Source: a virus
Virus record (IMG/VR): IMGVR_UViG_3300003332_000009
Coordinates: 1 to 35,359 of that record
Reading direction: 5' to 3' (one strand)
DNA: 35,359 nucleotides
A model generated the notes under the pieces. It saw nothing but the letters and a program-made list of their open reading frames with translations. It was not told the origin of the DNA and did no database searches. Of the stretch, positions 4,141 through 35,359 are shown piece by piece. The translations under genes were made by a program, and so were the position numbers. Each line of letters starts with the position of its first letter. The first letter of the stretch is position 1.

Positions 4141-5343
4141 ATGAACCTGAAGATTAAAACCCCACGGTGGGCAAAGCCGTTTTTACATCCGGCCAGGTAT
4201 AAAGGAGTACACGGCGGTAGGGGTAGCGGCAAGTCAACATTTTTTGCTGGTGAAGTGGTTCTTGATGCGTACCAGGGTAAAAATATAGTATGCGTCAGGG
4301 AAATACAACGTACACTGGCCCAATCAGCCAAAAAACTGATAGAAACGAAGATTGAAGAGTACGGGATGGGCAAGGCTTTTGATATACAGAGGGACCAAAT
4401 AAAAGGCCCACACGGAAATCTTATAATATTTAACGGGCTTAGAGATCATAACGCTGAATCAATCAAATCACTCGAAGGGTATGACATAGCATGGATTGAA
4501 GAAGCCCAAAGTATGAGCCAACGATCACTTGATTTATTAAGGCCGACAATCAGAAAGGAATGTTCTGAAATATGGGCAAGCTGGAATCCAAGATTCGAGA
4601 CAGACCCGATAGATGTATTGTTGAGAGGTGAGAACCCTCCTCCAGATGCGACAGTGGTAGAATGTAACTATTCAGATAATAAATGGTTCCCCGACGTACT
4701 CAAAAAAGAGTTGGAATATGATAAACGAAGAGACCCGGAGAAGTACGCTCATGTCTGGCTGGGCGGATATCTTAGAAATTCAGAGGCAAGAGTTTTTAGA
4801 AATTGGACTATTGAAGAGTTTAATACTCCCTCCGATGCTTCCTTTAGATTGGGCGCTGACTGGGGATTTTCAGTCGACCCTACAGTCCTTACAAGATGTT
4901 ATATTGAAGGGCGAAAGCTATTTATCGATTATGAAGCATATGAGGTAGGCTGTGAGATTGAAAACATACCGTTACTTTTTCAGACTATACCAGAGTCAGA
5001 AAAATGGCCTATCGTTGCTGACAACAATCGGCCCGATACTATTGACTACATGCAAAGACACGGATTCCCGAAAATCTACGGAGCTGCTAAAGGGAAAGGA
5101 AGTATCGAGGACGGAATCGAATGGCTGAAGAACTATGATATAATCGTACATCCCCGGTGCAAGCACACAATCGACGAATTGACAATGTACAGTTATAAGG
5201 TTGACAAAGATACCGGAAAAGTACTACCAGTGTTAAAAGACAAAGACAATCATGTTATAGACTCGCTCAGGTATGCCAACGAAGGATACCGGAGAGCAAG
5301 GCACACTGAAGCACAACCAATCGAATTTGATTCAGAGTGGTAA
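4141..5343 (+). CDS. terL: Terminase large subunit (PBSX type)
   Basis: 400 residues. ATPase domain: Walker A GGRGSGKST (25-33), Walker B with catalytic Glu in DIAWIEEA (115-122), and ASWNP (146-150). RNase H-like nuclease: first Asp in GADWGF (D240), second in IVADNN (D293), third in HVIDSLRYA (D374). It therefore cuts and pumps DNA at the portal. A TAA at 4135-4137 forces the start at ATG 4141 or later. Almost no Shine-Dalgarno is visible, which suggests low expression or coupling through the 53-base gap after terS. Length fits the family. Confidence 0.96.
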   Translation: MNLKIKTPRWAKPFLHPARYKGVHGGRGSGKSTFFAGEVVLDAYQGKNIVCVREIQRTLAQSAKKLIETKIEEYGMGKAFDIQRDQIKGPHGNLIIFNGLRDHNAESIKSLEGYDIAWIEEAQSMSQRSLDLLRPTIRKECSEIWASWNPRFETDPIDVLLRGENPPPDATVVECNYSDNKWFPDVLKKELEYDKRRDPEKYAHVWLGGYLRNSEARVFRNWTIEEFNTPSDASFRLGADWGFSVDPTVLTRCYIEGRKLFIDYEAYEVGCEIENIPLLFQTIPESEKWPIVADNNRPDTIDYMQRHGFPKIYGAAKGKGSIEDGIEWLKNYDIIVHPRCKHTIDELTMYSYKVDKDTGKVLPVLKDKDNHVIDSLRYANEGYRRARHTEAQPIEFDSEW

Positions 5344-22869: not shown

Positions 22870-23328
22870 TCATTGTGTGTGTTTCGACATTTCTTTATCA
22901 ATTGCGCTCTGCATGATTACCTCAACCACTTCGCCGCGGTGCTTGTTTTTAAACTGGTCCATTTTGAATAATTCCACCCAAAGCTGCTTGTCGACCCTTA
23001 GTTGTATGGTTGTTAATTTGCCACAAGGCGAAAACCTTACTTTCTTTTTTCGCCGCCTCTTGTTGTTTGCTTGTTCTTTTATGGTTGCCCACCTACAATT
23101 TTTAGGGCAGTAATTCCCGTCATTGTTTATTCTGTCGATTGACAACCCTGGCGGCCTTTTTCCCATATCAAGTAAGAAAGTATCGAAGCTATCCCACCTT
23201 TCACAGATAGATATCCCCCTCCCTCCATAGTATTTGTAACCACTATTTTTTTTATTATTGCACCTTTGCCTCATATTAGCCCATGTTTTGTACTCACTTT
23301 TGTGTAGTTTGCGGTTTGTATTTTTCAT
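22870..23328 (-). CDS. HNH-like (homing-type) nuclease with ribbon-helix-helix-like tail
   Basis: 152 residues. Residues 10-90 carry the phage HNH/AP2-associated pattern: YKTWANMRQRC, YYGGRGISICERW (33-45), then SIDRINNDGNYCPKNCRWAT (63-82) and EQANN. Such proteins nick DNA and can spread by homing. The C-terminal part (106-145, TTIQLRVDKQLWVELFKMDQ ...) looks like a ribbon-helix-helix segment, similar to the protein encoded just upstream at 23325-23498. The ATG overlaps the upstream TGA (ATGA). It sits in the only minus-strand operon of the window. Confidence 0.75.
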   Translation of the reverse strand: MKNTNRKLHKSEYKTWANMRQRCNNKKNSGYKYYGGRGISICERWDSFDTFLLDMGKRPPGLSIDRINNDGNYCPKNCRWATIKEQANNKRRRKKKVRFSPCGKLTTIQLRVDKQLWVELFKMDQFKNKHRGEVVEVIMQSAIDKEMSKHTQ

Positions 23329-28564: not shown

Positions 28565-28609
28565 AGTTAAAAGATGTTAAAATTATTTAATAGAATCAAA
28601 TGGTATCAT

Positions 28610-28819
28610 ATGAGAATAACAATAGAAACAGCCCAATCCGGGATTGCTGAGTTTAGGCAAAAAAACGGGTACACCCTGGATAAACTTTCAGAAAAAACCG
28701 GTGTTGCAAAATCTACATTGATAAAAATCGAGGCTGGAAGTGTAAAGCCACAGGCGACAACCGTCTATAAACTTAACCAGCACATTAAAACGGTTGAGCC
28801 ATGCACAGAGGCTATGTAA
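28610..28819 (+). CDS. XRE-type HTH regulator (Cro-like size)
   Basis: 69 residues from ATG 28610 (81 from ATG 28574). The HTH spans IAEFRQKNGYTLDKLSEKTG, then VAKSTLIKIEAGSVKPQATT, the XRE/Cro signature with the IExGxxxPxxxT tail. Being only one domain long, it could act as Cro or as a regulator of the replication operon and its promoter at 28535. No larger CI-like repressor was found in the window. The gene end overlaps the replication initiator start by 19 bases. Confidence 0.75.
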   Translation: MRITIETAQSGIAEFRQKNGYTLDKLSEKTGVAKSTLIKIEAGSVKPQATTVYKLNQHIKTVEPCTEAM

Positions 28820-29580
28820 GGGATTACAGGAAAGGGATAGAACATCCTCTTTTTTCGAGACCTCTTATATGGCATTTCTGGACATATTGCAGGCTAAGGG
28901 CAAACCATAAAGAAGTCTTGATTGACTTTAATGGTCTACCTCTCAAACTCGAAAGGGGATGTTTCGTCATGAGCGTAGGAAGCGCATCAAAGGATACTGG
29001 ATTGACCACCCAAAATATCAGGACGGCAATCAAGATTCTCTCTTCTCACGGAATGATCGAAAAATCAACAAGCGAAGTAACAAAGCAAGCGACTATTGTA
29101 AGGGTGCTAAAATACGACGTTTACCAGGATTTAAAAAAGGATGCTAACAAGGTAACTAACGAACAGCTAACAAAGTGCCAACAAGGTGCTAACAAAGTGC
29201 TAACAACAGATAATAATGTTAATAATGTTGAAAATGAAGAAAAGAACTATTCCGAAGACTCTAACGAGTTTCGGTTGGCAGTTTTTCTTTTAAACAATAT
29301 TAGGAAACGGAAACCGGATTTCAAAATACCCAACCTACAAACATGGTCAAAGCAATCTGATTATATTTTAAGGATTGATAGGAGAGATATCGGCGAGGTT
29401 AAAAAGGTAGTTATGTGGTGTCAGGCCGATGAATTCTGGCAGGACAATATCTTATCTACTGCAAAACTCAGAAAACAGTATGACCAACTTGTTTTGAAGA
29501 TGAATAAGGAAACAGCTAACGGAATACAATCAAAAAAGAGCGCAACATTAACAGCTATACCGGGGGCGATCAGTGTTTAA
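28801..29580 (+). CDS. Replication initiator (winged-helix, iteron-carrying)
   Basis: 259 residues. N-terminal domain (1-110): WHFWTYCRLRANHKEVLIDF, LKLERGCFVMSVGSASKDTG, LTTQNIRTAIKILSSHGMIE, a winged helix like phage O-type or DnaD-like replication proteins. Residues 115-137 are encoded by 11-bp DNA repeats and are low-complexity (Asn, Lys, Val, Thr). C-terminal part (160-245) has YILRIDRRDIGEVKKVVMWC and FWQDNILSTAKLRKQYDQL, a typical helicase-loading domain. Lambda O likewise holds its origin inside its gene. It overlaps the primase-helicase start by eight bases. Confidence 0.82.
   Translation: MHRGYVRDYRKGIEHPLFSRPLIWHFWTYCRLRANHKEVLIDFNGLPLKLERGCFVMSVGSASKDTGLTTQNIRTAIKILSSHGMIEKSTSEVTKQATIVRVLKYDVYQDLKKDANKVTNEQLTKCQQGANKVLTTDNNVNNVENEEKNYSEDSNEFRLAVFLLNNIRKRKPDFKIPNLQTWSKQSDYILRIDRRDIGEVKKVVMWCQADEFWQDNILSTAKLRKQYDQLVLKMNKETANGIQSKKSATLTAIPGAISV
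29143..29209 (+). repeat. Six 11-bp iterons inside the initiator gene, putative replication origin
   Basis: gctaacaaggt (29143), a weaker aactaacgaac (29154), then four head-to-tail units gctaacaaagt (29166), gccaacaaggt (29177), gctaacaaagt (29188), gctaacaacag (29199). The 11-base period is one helical turn and not a multiple of three, so the repetition is not a protein repeat. An AT-rich stretch follows (29210-29245), fitting an unwinding element. Confidence 0.7.
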
Positions 29581-31294
29581 AACATTCAAAGACAAGCGCA
29601 ATGAAGAATGGAACATAATAACATCATGGAACGATTTAGACATTCCAAATGCGTCAGATGGTAAGACAGTATGCCTATGTCCTCTATGTTCATCTGGCAG
29701 GTCAGACGCTAACAAAAAACAAAAATGTCTTTCTGTAAATTATAAAAGGGGAACCGCATATTGTGGGCATTGTGGAAAAAGGTTTATGTTGATGCCAGAA
29801 AAACCTACAGAAAAGGTTCACAGAAAAAAACCGGTATATAAAAAACCTGAGGAAAAAATAAAACATGATATTCCAGAAGAACTATTACTGTATCTTTATA
29901 AGCGGAAAATAACCGATAAAGTTATCTCCCGGAATAAGTTAGGCCATTCTGTTAAATGGTTTGCAAAAGCAAAAAAAGAGGCTCCATGTATATCTTTGCC
30001 GTACCACAAAGACGGGATACACACCGGGACAAAATACAGGTTGCCGGAACCAAAAGACCACACAGCAGAAACCGGAGCAGAGCCGATTGTTTACGGCTAT
30101 GATGATATTAAAGGCGACACACTTATATGGGTAGAGGGGGAGTTTGACAAATTAGCGGTTGAAGTTGCTGGGTTCGAAAATTGTGTGTCAGTCCCGAACG
30201 GGGCAAAAAGCGCAGGGTCACTTGAGAATTGCAAAGAGAAGTTAGAAAAAATAACAAACCATATCATAGCAGGTGATAACGACAAAGACGGAAAAGAACT
30301 AACAACCGAGTTAATTCGGAGGCTGAACCCAGCGAGGTGTAAACTTGTAAAATGGCCGGAAGGGTGCAAAGACGCTAACGAGGTGCTTTACCGTCACGGC
30401 CCGGAAATTGTCAAAAGGTGCATTGAAGACGCTGAAAGGATGCCAGTAAAGGGAATCGTAAAACCATCCGCATTGGTAAATAAATTACTTGATTTGTATG
30501 ATAGCCCTGATGCTCATGGACTATCTACCGGGTGGGATAATGTAGATAAACTTTACAGGGTGCGCCCAGGTCAGTGGACTGTAGTAACCGGTATCCCGAA
30601 TCATGGGAAAAGTGAATGGCTGGATGCGTTGGCCACAAACATGATGATAAATCACAAGTGGAAGTTTGGCATATTCAGCCCCGAAAATAATCCTATAGAA
30701 GAGCATTTAGAAAAGTTTATAAAAAAATTCTACGGGAAACCATACGGCAAAGGGTACAATGGTAGTATTACAAAAGAACAAGCGGCTGAGTTAGCTATTA
30801 ATCTTGATGATAGGTTGAATTTTATTGCTATTGACGAAGACATACACACAATGGAATCCCTGATAGAAGTAACTGAATCGTTAGTTTTATCTGAAGGGAT
30901 AAACGGGGTAATTTATGACCCATGGAACATGATAGAACACAATAGACCATCAAACGTATCAGAAACAGATTATATTTCATCCGCTTTAAGTAAAGTGACA
31001 TACATGGTAAAAAAACATAATATTCATGCTTGGATTGTAGCGCATCCTACCAAGCTACAAAAAAAACATGATAACACATATGCCCCACCGCTACCTTATG
31101 ATATATCAGGATCAGCCCATTGGAATAATAAATGCTATAATGCTATAACTATCCATATTCCAAACGATAAAGAAATGCCAGAAAATGCGGTAAAAATATA
31201 TGTTAACAAAATCAAAAGCAGAAAAACCGGGAGACCAGGGGAAACTGTTCTTTACTATCAAGGGGCTTCCGGCAGATATACAACACAACCATGA
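29573..31294 (+). CDS. TOPRIM primase-DnaB-like helicase (T7 gp4-type)
   Basis: 573 residues (T7 gp4 is 566). Start GTG 29573, overlapping the initiator stop. Zinc-binding CPLC (36-39) and CGHC (64-67). TOPRIM: catalytic Glu in WVEGEFDKLA (E188) and AGDNDKDG (233-240, two Asp). RecA-like helicase: Walker A GIPNHGKS (340-347), Walker B-type GVIYDPW (D449), sensor IVAHPTK. The SENNP segment of gp4-like proteins appears here as FSPENNP. One polypeptide primes and unwinds the phage fork, loaded by the upstream initiator at the iterons. Confidence 0.93.
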   Translation: MFKTFKDKRNEEWNIITSWNDLDIPNASDGKTVCLCPLCSSGRSDANKKQKCLSVNYKRGTAYCGHCGKRFMLMPEKPTEKVHRKKPVYKKPEEKIKHDIPEELLLYLYKRKITDKVISRNKLGHSVKWFAKAKKEAPCISLPYHKDGIHTGTKYRLPEPKDHTAETGAEPIVYGYDDIKGDTLIWVEGEFDKLAVEVAGFENCVSVPNGAKSAGSLENCKEKLEKITNHIIAGDNDKDGKELTTELIRRLNPARCKLVKWPEGCKDANEVLYRHGPEIVKRCIEDAERMPVKGIVKPSALVNKLLDLYDSPDAHGLSTGWDNVDKLYRVRPGQWTVVTGIPNHGKSEWLDALATNMMINHKWKFGIFSPENNPIEEHLEKFIKKFYGKPYGKGYNGSITKEQAAELAINLDDRLNFIAIDEDIHTMESLIEVTESLVLSEGINGVIYDPWNMIEHNRPSNVSETDYISSALSKVTYMVKKHNIHAWIVAHPTKLQKKHDNTYAPPLPYDISGSAHWNNKCYNAITIHIPNDKEMPENAVKIYVNKIKSRKTGRPGETVLYYQGASGRYTTQP

Positions 31295-33672: not shown

Positions 33673-33795
33673 ATGAAAACATTAACCTGCAAGCGGTGTA
33701 AACATGAATGGTATCCAAGAAAGCCAGAAAAACCCAAAACCTGTCCAAAGTGTAAAAGTCCTTACTGGGACAAAGAAAGGCGGAAAAAAGTATAA
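33673..33795 (+). CDS. Tiny zinc-ribbon protein
   Basis: 40 residues, MKTLTCKRCKHEWYPRKPEK, PKTCPKCKSPYWDKERRKKV. The C-x2-C-x3-W-x3-P ... TCPKCKSPYWD pattern is a well-known phage/archaeal microprotein ribbon. Strong GGGGGAG ribosome site. The basic tail suggests nucleic-acid contact. Its last 92 bases overlap the N-terminal frame of the following HNH-like gene. Confidence 0.75.
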   Translation: MKTLTCKRCKHEWYPRKPEKPKTCPKCKSPYWDKERRKKV

Positions 33796-34411
33796 TTATA
33801 AACATGGATGGTCGAGAACTAGATTATATAGAACATGGAACGCAATGAAACAGAGATGCACAAACAAAAACTCTTCGTGTTACAAAAATTATGGTGGTAA
33901 GGGTGTTTACGTTTGTGATGAGTGGAAAAATTCTTTTGTTGTCTTTAAGGAATGGGCAATAAAAAATGGGTACCAGGAAAATTTAGAAATAGATAGAATT
34001 TTGAGTAGTGGAAACTATGAGCCGTTAAATTGTAGGTTTATAACAAAAAGTGAAAACGTAAAAAACTTATGGAGGATAAAAACAATTGAAGACGCGGCAA
34101 TTGTGGCGATGAAAGAAAAACCCTTACATTGGATTAACCCTCTTAAAGTAAATATAGCGAGAGATGTGTTTGAAAGTTTGTTTAATTTAGGGTTGTGTAG
34201 GCGTAGGATAGACCCTTATAATAAATGGGTTTATCAATACCAAATAACAACACCTGAAACACAAAATATAATCGATAAATACCGTTACGATAACCCAACC
34301 AGCAGCCTTTACGAATACTCAGATTTTCACGGCCGCTACCTTTTTGCATGCTCCAATCCATTTAACCTATGCGAGTCCGAATTGATCGCTGAATACGAGG
34401 CTAAGCAATGA
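33704..34411 (+). CDS. HNH-like nuclease with YGGKG motif
   Basis: 235 residues from ATG 33704, which lies inside the preceding zinc-ribbon gene. Homology by eye starts about residue 30: KHGWSRTRLYRTWNAMKQRC (33-52), YGGKGVYVCDEW (63-74), EIDRILSSGNYEPLNCRFIT (95-114). It shares this layout with the minus-strand nuclease at 22870. The C-terminal half (130-235) is unrelated and may recognise DNA. Gene start is unusual; the true start may be weak or the gene may have landed here by homing. Overlaps the next start by four bases. Confidence 0.75.
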   Translation: MNGIQESQKNPKPVQSVKVLTGTKKGGKKYNYKHGWSRTRLYRTWNAMKQRCTNKNSSCYKNYGGKGVYVCDEWKNSFVVFKEWAIKNGYQENLEIDRILSSGNYEPLNCRFITKSENVKNLWRIKTIEDAAIVAMKEKPLHWINPLKVNIARDVFESLFNLGLCRRRIDPYNKWVYQYQITTPETQNIIDKYRYDNPTSSLYEYSDFHGRYLFACSNPFNLCESELIAEYEAKQ

Positions 34412-34840: not shown

Positions 34841-35359
34841 ATGGATAAAAAAAAGTTAGAAAAAATACTTGATTTGCACAAAAAATGGTTAAGGGGAGAT
34901 AAAGGCGGGAATAGAGCGGACCTCTACGGAGCGGACCTAACCGGAGCGGACCTCTACGGAGCGGACCTCACCAGAGCGAACCTCACCAGAGCGGACCTCA
35001 CCGGAGCGAACCTCACCAGAGCGAACCTCACCGGAGCGAACCTCACCAGAGCGGACCTCACCAGAGCGAACCTCACCAGAGCGAACCTCACCAGAGCGGA
35101 CCTCACCGGAGCGGACCTCTACGGAGCGGACCTCACCAGAGCGAACCTCACCAGAGCGGACCTCTACGGAGCGAACCTCACCAGAGCGGACCTCTACGGA
35201 GCGGACCTCACCAGAGCGGACCTCACCGGAGCGAACCTCACCAGAGCGAACTTCACCGGAGCGAACCTCACCGGAGCGGACCTCACCAGAGCGAACCTCA
35301 CCAGAGCGAACCTCACCAGAGCGGACCTCACCGGAGCGGACCTCTACGGAGCGGACCTC
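34841..35359 (+). CDS. Pentapeptide-repeat protein, 5' part (continues at 2-625)
   Basis: The ATG at 34841 follows a GGATAAGGGG ribosome site. MDKKKLEKILDLHKKWLRGD, then GGNR, forms a short N-terminal helix that usually caps pentapeptide proteins. From 34916 the repeat begins: 29 full units and ADL at the edge. The reading frame reaches the last base at codon 173. A one-base overlap with base 1 completes the next unit as ADLTG and leads into the left part; direct joining would shift the frame. The full protein would have 46 units and about 380 residues. Confidence 0.85.
   Translation, partial: MDKKKLEKILDLHKKWLRGDKGGNRADLYGADLTGADLYGADLTRANLTRADLTGANLTRANLTGANLTRADLTRANLTRANLTRADLTGADLYGADLTRANLTRADLYGANLTRADLYGADLTRADLTGANLTRANFTGANLTGADLTRANLTRANLTRADLTGADLYGADL
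34916..35359 (+). repeat. 15-bp tandem coding repeat, right part
   Basis: 29 complete 15-base units plus nine bases. Unit types seen: [25 protein letters not shown] and one ANFTG (aac-ttc at 35249-35254). The codon choice is nearly constant. Tyr occurs only in the unit with Asp and Gly. Part of the array that continues at 2-250. Confidence 0.97.

Follow-up and report, generated by a model that had tools for sequence, protein, structure and literature searches.

An array of 11-bp direct repeats as a predicted replication origin within a phage initiator gene

Six directly repeated 11-bp units and an adjoining AT-rich tract lie inside the initiator gene of the phage genome studied here, and we propose, with a probability of roughly 0.88, that together they form a theta-replication origin in the linker-coding part of that gene, worked by the gene's own product. 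By homology, the replication-origin reading is well supported in this phage, and its best model is oriL of Bacillus phage SPP1 with its initiator G38P rather than the lambda origin. Replication origins are unknown for most sequenced phages.

Results

The window analyzed is one whole IMG/VR record of 35,359 bp, closed to a circle by a 91-bp exact terminal repeat. A pentapeptide-repeat protein gene (34841-35359 and 1-252) runs off the right end, and its 15-bp tandem repeats resume at the left; these repeats at both ends, together with the terminal repeat, indicate a circularly permuted genome whose cut site falls within this gene. Two other ORFs (22870-23328, minus strand, and 33704-34411, plus strand) have the motif 'W..M.QRC.NK...(Y/C)K.YGG.G(I/V)' in common and look like related mobile genes of the homing type.

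The initiator (replisome organizer) gene, at 28801-29580 on the plus strand, encodes a protein of 259 aa that matches PHROG 2514, 'DnaD-like helicase loader', over residues 2-248 (E=2e-52), with weaker matches to O-like and replisome-organizer profiles in its second half. In an AlphaFold2 model built on a 41-sequence alignment, an N-terminal winged-helix domain (residues 4-109, 28810-29127, plus strand; PHROG 2514 and 186; pLDDT mostly 81-97 over this block), which is the putative iteron binder and has its putative recognition helix at residues 70-82 (29008-29046), is followed by a predicted disordered linker (residues 113-146, 29137-29238, plus strand; pLDDT<50) and a C-terminal helical domain (residues 155-245, 29263-29535, plus strand). 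The latter is homologous to the C-domains of lambda O and phi80 gp15, the lambda O C-domain being matched by residues 154-251 (tblastn E=1e-4), in line with matches to PHROG 391 (E=3.5e-21) and PHROG 277 (E=4e-10). A fold search returned only generic winged-helix matches of the MarR/CodY type, all with E above 0.01 and none significant, and a sequence search of the PDB gave no match. Directly upstream lies a small HTH gene (at 28574, 81-aa product), and directly downstream a primase/helicase gene (29573-31294, plus strand; PHROG 239, with Toprim and DnaB_C domains) encodes the probable replisome partner of the initiator.

Within the DNA coding for the linker, TRF calls an array of period 11 at 29142-29206, which it also calls as period 33. 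Read directly, the array consists of six units on the plus strand at 29143-29209, with the consensus GCTAACAAAGT: iteron 1 (GCTAACAAGGT, 29143-29153), a degenerate iteron 2 (ACTAACGAACA, 29155-29165), iteron 3 (GCTAACAAAGT, 29166-29176), iteron 4 (GCCAACAAGGT, 29177-29187), iteron 5 (GCTAACAAAGT, 29188-29198), and iteron 6 (GCTAACAACAG, 29199-29209), whose 3′ half is degenerate and runs into the AT-rich tract. Successive units start 12, 11, 11, 11, and 11 bp apart. The first-pass annotation had described four units in perfect phase and two degenerate ones in the linker-coding part of the gene; the location and the number of six hold, while only two of the six units (iterons 3 and 5) have the exact consensus and one step, from iteron 1 to iteron 2, is of 12 bp. 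The units are non-palindromic, with no dyad symmetry above chance.

The same annotation argued that the repeat does not follow the codon phase and is thus selected as DNA, and both arguments are borne out. From iteron 1 to iteron 6, the units begin at codon phases 0, 0, 2, 1, 0, and 2, using all three phases, so that the repeat is indeed out of phase with the reading frame. Furthermore, 27 of 33 positions in the array match at lag 11, more than in any of 20,000 recodings in which the protein was fixed and synonymous codons were resampled by the phage's own usage (mean 17.5, maximum 26 matches; p=5e-5) and more than after shuffling of codon order in the initiator gene (maximum 23; p=5e-5). Between positions 400 and 34,850, no lag-11 score of at least 22 occurs elsewhere in the genome, and a search of the 35,359-bp window for a second, oriR-like array found none. 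GC skew, which the first-pass annotation had suggested as a check, never turns along the genome and is uninformative on the position of an origin, since nearly all genes are on one strand.

Behind the units lies an AT-rich tract with 9-bp repeats (TAATAATGT), at 29207-29247, which is a candidate DNA-unwinding element (DUE). Its GC content is 22% over the 41 bp and 20% over 29207-29236, compared with 44% for the genome, so that the AT-rich stretch reported in the first-pass annotation is confirmed; the local minimum of 17.5% is reached by only 0.36% of the genome's 40-nt windows.

We next asked how widely this layout occurs. A single-sequence search of viral contigs found no close relative of the window's protein, and a 12-sequence alignment proved too diverse to serve as a query; several seeds were therefore used to gather distant relatives. 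Relatives of the N-domain were taken from phage records and viral contigs and reduced to 66 at <70% identity, and periodicity in each was scored as excess over its own gene's synonymous-codon null. Excess periodicity is confined to 11, 22, and 33 bp (mean z 3.1, 2.9, and 1.2), with p<0.05 in 82%, 74%, and 23% of the 66 relatives, respectively, and in at most 15% at other periods. Among 56 control genes from the same loci, only 9% reach p<0.05 at period 11. Absence of the repeats from close relatives with the same initiator, which the first-pass annotation had named as evidence against an origin, is thus the opposite of what we find. The median array start is nt 345 of the gene (10-90%: 324-381), just behind a conserved Y-Q that closes the N-domain. 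The place and the 11-bp spacing are shared by most relatives, but the letters of the unit are not: they vary widely between phages (TAACCAACAAG, GAACAGCTACC, ACAACAAATCA, GGTCAGGCACA, GACCACACGGA, and others). Such a combination of fixed place and spacing with varied letters is what one would predict for an array whose function depends on position and spacing and whose letters coevolve with a binding protein.

The AT-rich tract with 9-bp repeats usually comes after the array in relatives as well. In 51 relatives, the tract behind the array is AT-enriched at third codon positions too (p=5e-6), with AAT preferred over AAC (p=6e-8).

Relatives also include exceptions and unusual cases. In about 18% of the 66, no period-11 array reaches significance. 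Paenibacillus phage Tadhana (L004), for instance, has no 11-bp array in its linker, the Lactobacillus relatives L190 and L192 score low at period 11, and a Listeria relative (L117) has a unit spacing of 12 bp. The longest array seen (L145) comprises ~14 units of 11 bp (GACTACAAAGA) at gene nt 336-489. Three relatives (L228, L229, and L233) come from circular 39-45 kb 'plasmid' records in which the initiator stands beside RecT, AAA ATPase, or DnaB-like genes, and these may be phage-plasmids; L228 and L229 carry 11-bp arrays.

The nearest experimentally validated system is found among these relatives. One of them (L172) is SPP1 gene 38 (100% identity to X67865), in which the units GAAACGACAGA GAAACGACACG AAAAAGACACG AAAAAGACACA are followed by the AT-rich ACAATGATAACAATGAAAACAATGATAAC, that is, by the same succession of an 11-bp row and a 9-bp AT-rich tract. 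Within gene 38, SPP1 oriL has been experimentally established as direct repeats with an AT-rich DUE, which G38P (gp38) binds with nanomolar affinity and on which theta replication has been reconstituted (PMC6316719). G38P matches PHROG 2514 over residues 4-151 (E=1.8e-33), and direct BLASTP of the N-domains of the window's initiator and G38P gives 21% identity, with an E value of 1e-4 that applies to one single comparison. That a proven in-gene origin belongs to a relative argues for the earlier proposal that this phage, too, has its origin within its own initiator gene.

SPP1 also provides some ground for an alternative in which the array binds the same protein but serves mainly as an autoregulatory operator or a replication-fork barrier instead of a start site. 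Whatever the array does, it is probably bound by the initiator; such binding inside the gene could affect the gene's transcription, and G38P bound at SPP1 oriR is thought to block forks (PMC6316719, PMC3485210). However, an unwinding-prone AT-rich tract stands behind the array in relatives generally, as in SPP1 oriL with its reconstituted theta replication, and the present genome has no second array that could act as the start site. We therefore regard a mainly regulatory or barrier role as unlikely.

Less likely still is that the repeats are a coding artefact, that is, slippage-made DNA repeats in a low-complexity T/N/Q/K-rich linker, with no function in cis. The linker is predicted to be disordered, and the NNxNN protein sequence accounts for most of the 9-bp repetition, whose excess over the protein null is small among the 66 relatives (mean z 0.9 at period 9). 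The 11-bp repeat, by contrast, does not keep step with the codons and scores above recodings that preserve the protein, both here and in 82% of relatives. Moreover, the layout is kept where it encodes nothing. In SPP1 (L214), an intergenic region at 4808-4945 carries the same units as gene 38 and an AT-rich tract; the units, at 4808-4910, form two groups with 11-12 bp spacing within groups, followed by ACAATGATAAACAATGAGAACAAT. No plus-strand ORF of at least 40 aa covers 4808-4945, which lies ~13 kb from gene 38 on the circular map, at the place expected for oriR. On the basis of this distance and the shared layout, the cluster is probably oriR, for which the SPP1 record used has no annotation. 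Similarly, in Solobacterium phage SMO_1P (L011, 1820-1943) a stop codon ends the initiator ORF partway through the 11-bp array, so that the protein comprises the N-domain alone, and the end of the array and the AT-rich 9-bp-repeat stretch continue where all three plus-strand frames are closed by stops. These two cases indicate that the array and tract persist without a coding role.

Several comparisons bear on the question of which domain recognizes the units. In lambda O and phi80 gp15 the C-domain is shared but the N-domain is not, and their iterons are ~20 bp apart, which suggests that unit spacing goes with the N-domain. Lactobacillus phages whose C-domains are 79-99% identical but whose N-domains are only 29-35% identical have different units, while Pseudoalteromonas phage HS2 and L026, whose N-domains are 79% identical and whose C-domains are 17% identical, have 10 of 11 unit letters in common. 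Only such high-identity pairs are informative in this comparison, and a pooled test at a 60% identity cut failed to separate the two domains, with 7.2 and 7.4 matches of 11 for units grouped by N- and C-domain, respectively. Within the recognition helix, the motif RT[AS] is accompanied by T[AG]AC in the units in 10/10 cases, vs. 3/42 of the others, an association noticed post hoc and uncorrected for phylogeny. Because a last scan of viral contigs added almost no new relatives, six loci from a plasmid collection were used for validation of this link. Among seven held-out loci, a Weissella locus with RT[AS] has units ending in CTAAC, and those lacking the motif show no repeated T[AG]AC. Across the set, the overall correlation between helix and unit is weak but significant (Mantel r=0.23, p=0.003, uncorrected for phylogeny). 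Together, these patterns lend moderate support to binding of the units by the N-domain. Recognition by some other protein, either the 81-aa HTH protein encoded directly upstream (28574) or a host factor, is highly improbable, since the array goes with the initiator N-domain in phages with quite different neighboring genes, the units follow the recognition-helix class, and G38P binds the equivalent SPP1 repeats (PMC6316719).

Discussion

Our results suggest a model for initiation in this phage. Each of the six 11-bp units would be bound by the winged-helix N-domain of one protomer of the 28801 product, with all protomers on nearly the same side of the DNA; the asymmetry of the units points to a head-to-tail order with one winged helix per turn. 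Strain from this protein row would melt the adjoining AT-rich 9-bp-repeat tract, and the lambda-O-like C-domain may then help to deliver the primase/helicase encoded by the next gene. The linker of the initiator would thus be chosen for its DNA sequence rather than its protein sequence.

One possibility, which we favor with some reservation, is that this arrangement represents a widespread class, in which this winged-helix N-domain is followed by 11-bp (sometimes 12-bp) units, with one protomer per helical turn, and then by an AT-rich 9-bp-repeat tract, the unit being set by the recognition helix and the origin and initiator forming a replaceable cognate module. If so, origins could be predicted from sequence in many phages and phage-like plasmids. 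Should the 11-bp rule hold, the initiator gene would reveal the origin in phages whose hosts are Gram-positive as well as Gram-negative, and domain swaps could test how recognition helix and repeat are linked. Competition at the origin might also arise when an incoming phage has the same unit, which could underlie interference between phages. The family-wide 11-bp rule and the helix-unit link may be novel, as neither is stated in the open-access papers that we found.

Origins inside replication genes are established or proposed in several phage systems, to which the present case bears different degrees of likeness. In P1, a lytic origin has been postulated within the replication gene repL, and recoding the AT-rich region of the gene synonymously impairs replication (PMC9948254); the likeness lies in the postulated in-gene origin, and the part of that source consulted describes no 11-bp array. 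For ORF20 of Staphylococcus phage 80alpha, which carries an annotated putative rep_origin, the origin probably lies within the initiator gene, as a deletion could not be complemented in trans (PMC5499656). An initiator gene with its origin inside should likewise not be fully complementable in trans in our phage. We considered 80alpha as an example of the 11-bp class and rejected it, since the N-domain is different by eye and the repeats within the annotated rep_origin (GTTAACGGTAAAACCAACAATGGAAAAACC; L210, 248-400) have a period of ~30 bp; 80alpha gp20 belongs to another initiator class, one with a repeat spacing peculiar to it.

Lambda O with ori-lambda and phi80 gp15 resemble the window's initiator in that iterons lie in the initiator gene between the N- and C-domains and the C-domain is homologous. 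In contrast, the lambda iterons are annotated as 18-bp sites starting 20, 24, and 23 bp apart, and those of phi80 are sites of 15-16 bp, ~21 bp apart, compared with 11-bp units here. One dimer occupies each 18-bp site in the lambda picture, unlike the single winged helix per turn proposed here. The N-domains of these proteins also differ from the PHROG 2514/186 N-domain of the window, with PHROG 2514 matched by lambda O only over residues 96-297 and by phi80 gp15 only over residues 147-300. The first-pass view that the origin mirrors lambda O with a shorter repeat therefore stands for the in-gene layout and the C-domain, although SPP1 oriL/G38P is nearer than lambda.

Closer in its N-domain is gene 43 of Shigella phage Sf6, a phage with mEpX2 and HK620 as relatives. 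The gene 43 N-domain matches PHROG 2514 (E=4e-24), and its linker contains 11-bp repeats (TTGTCCAACGG) that fall under a deposited putative rep_origin, 'repeat region reminiscent of the phage lambda origin'. Unlike the window's array, that of Sf6 is split into two shorter repeat groups with a spacer, and the C-domain is different.

The closest likeness is to SPP1 oriL and G38P, with a homologous N-domain, 11-bp direct units in linker-coding DNA, and an adjoining AT-rich, DUE-like tract. The two nevertheless differ in unit (GAAACGACACG in SPP1 and GCTAACAAAGT here), in the type of C-domain, and in the adjoining genes, which encode the loader gp39 and the helicase gp40 in SPP1 and a primase/helicase here; SPP1 also has a second origin, oriR, whereas this window yielded no second origin-like array. 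Given that the next gene is a PHROG 239 primase/helicase and that a second array is lacking, we do not claim the whole SPP1 module (G38P-G39P-G40P, oriL, and oriR) for this phage. Judged from its sequence relationships, the predicted origin instead groups with the SPP1-type in-gene origins, and its initiator carries a C-domain of the lambda O type.
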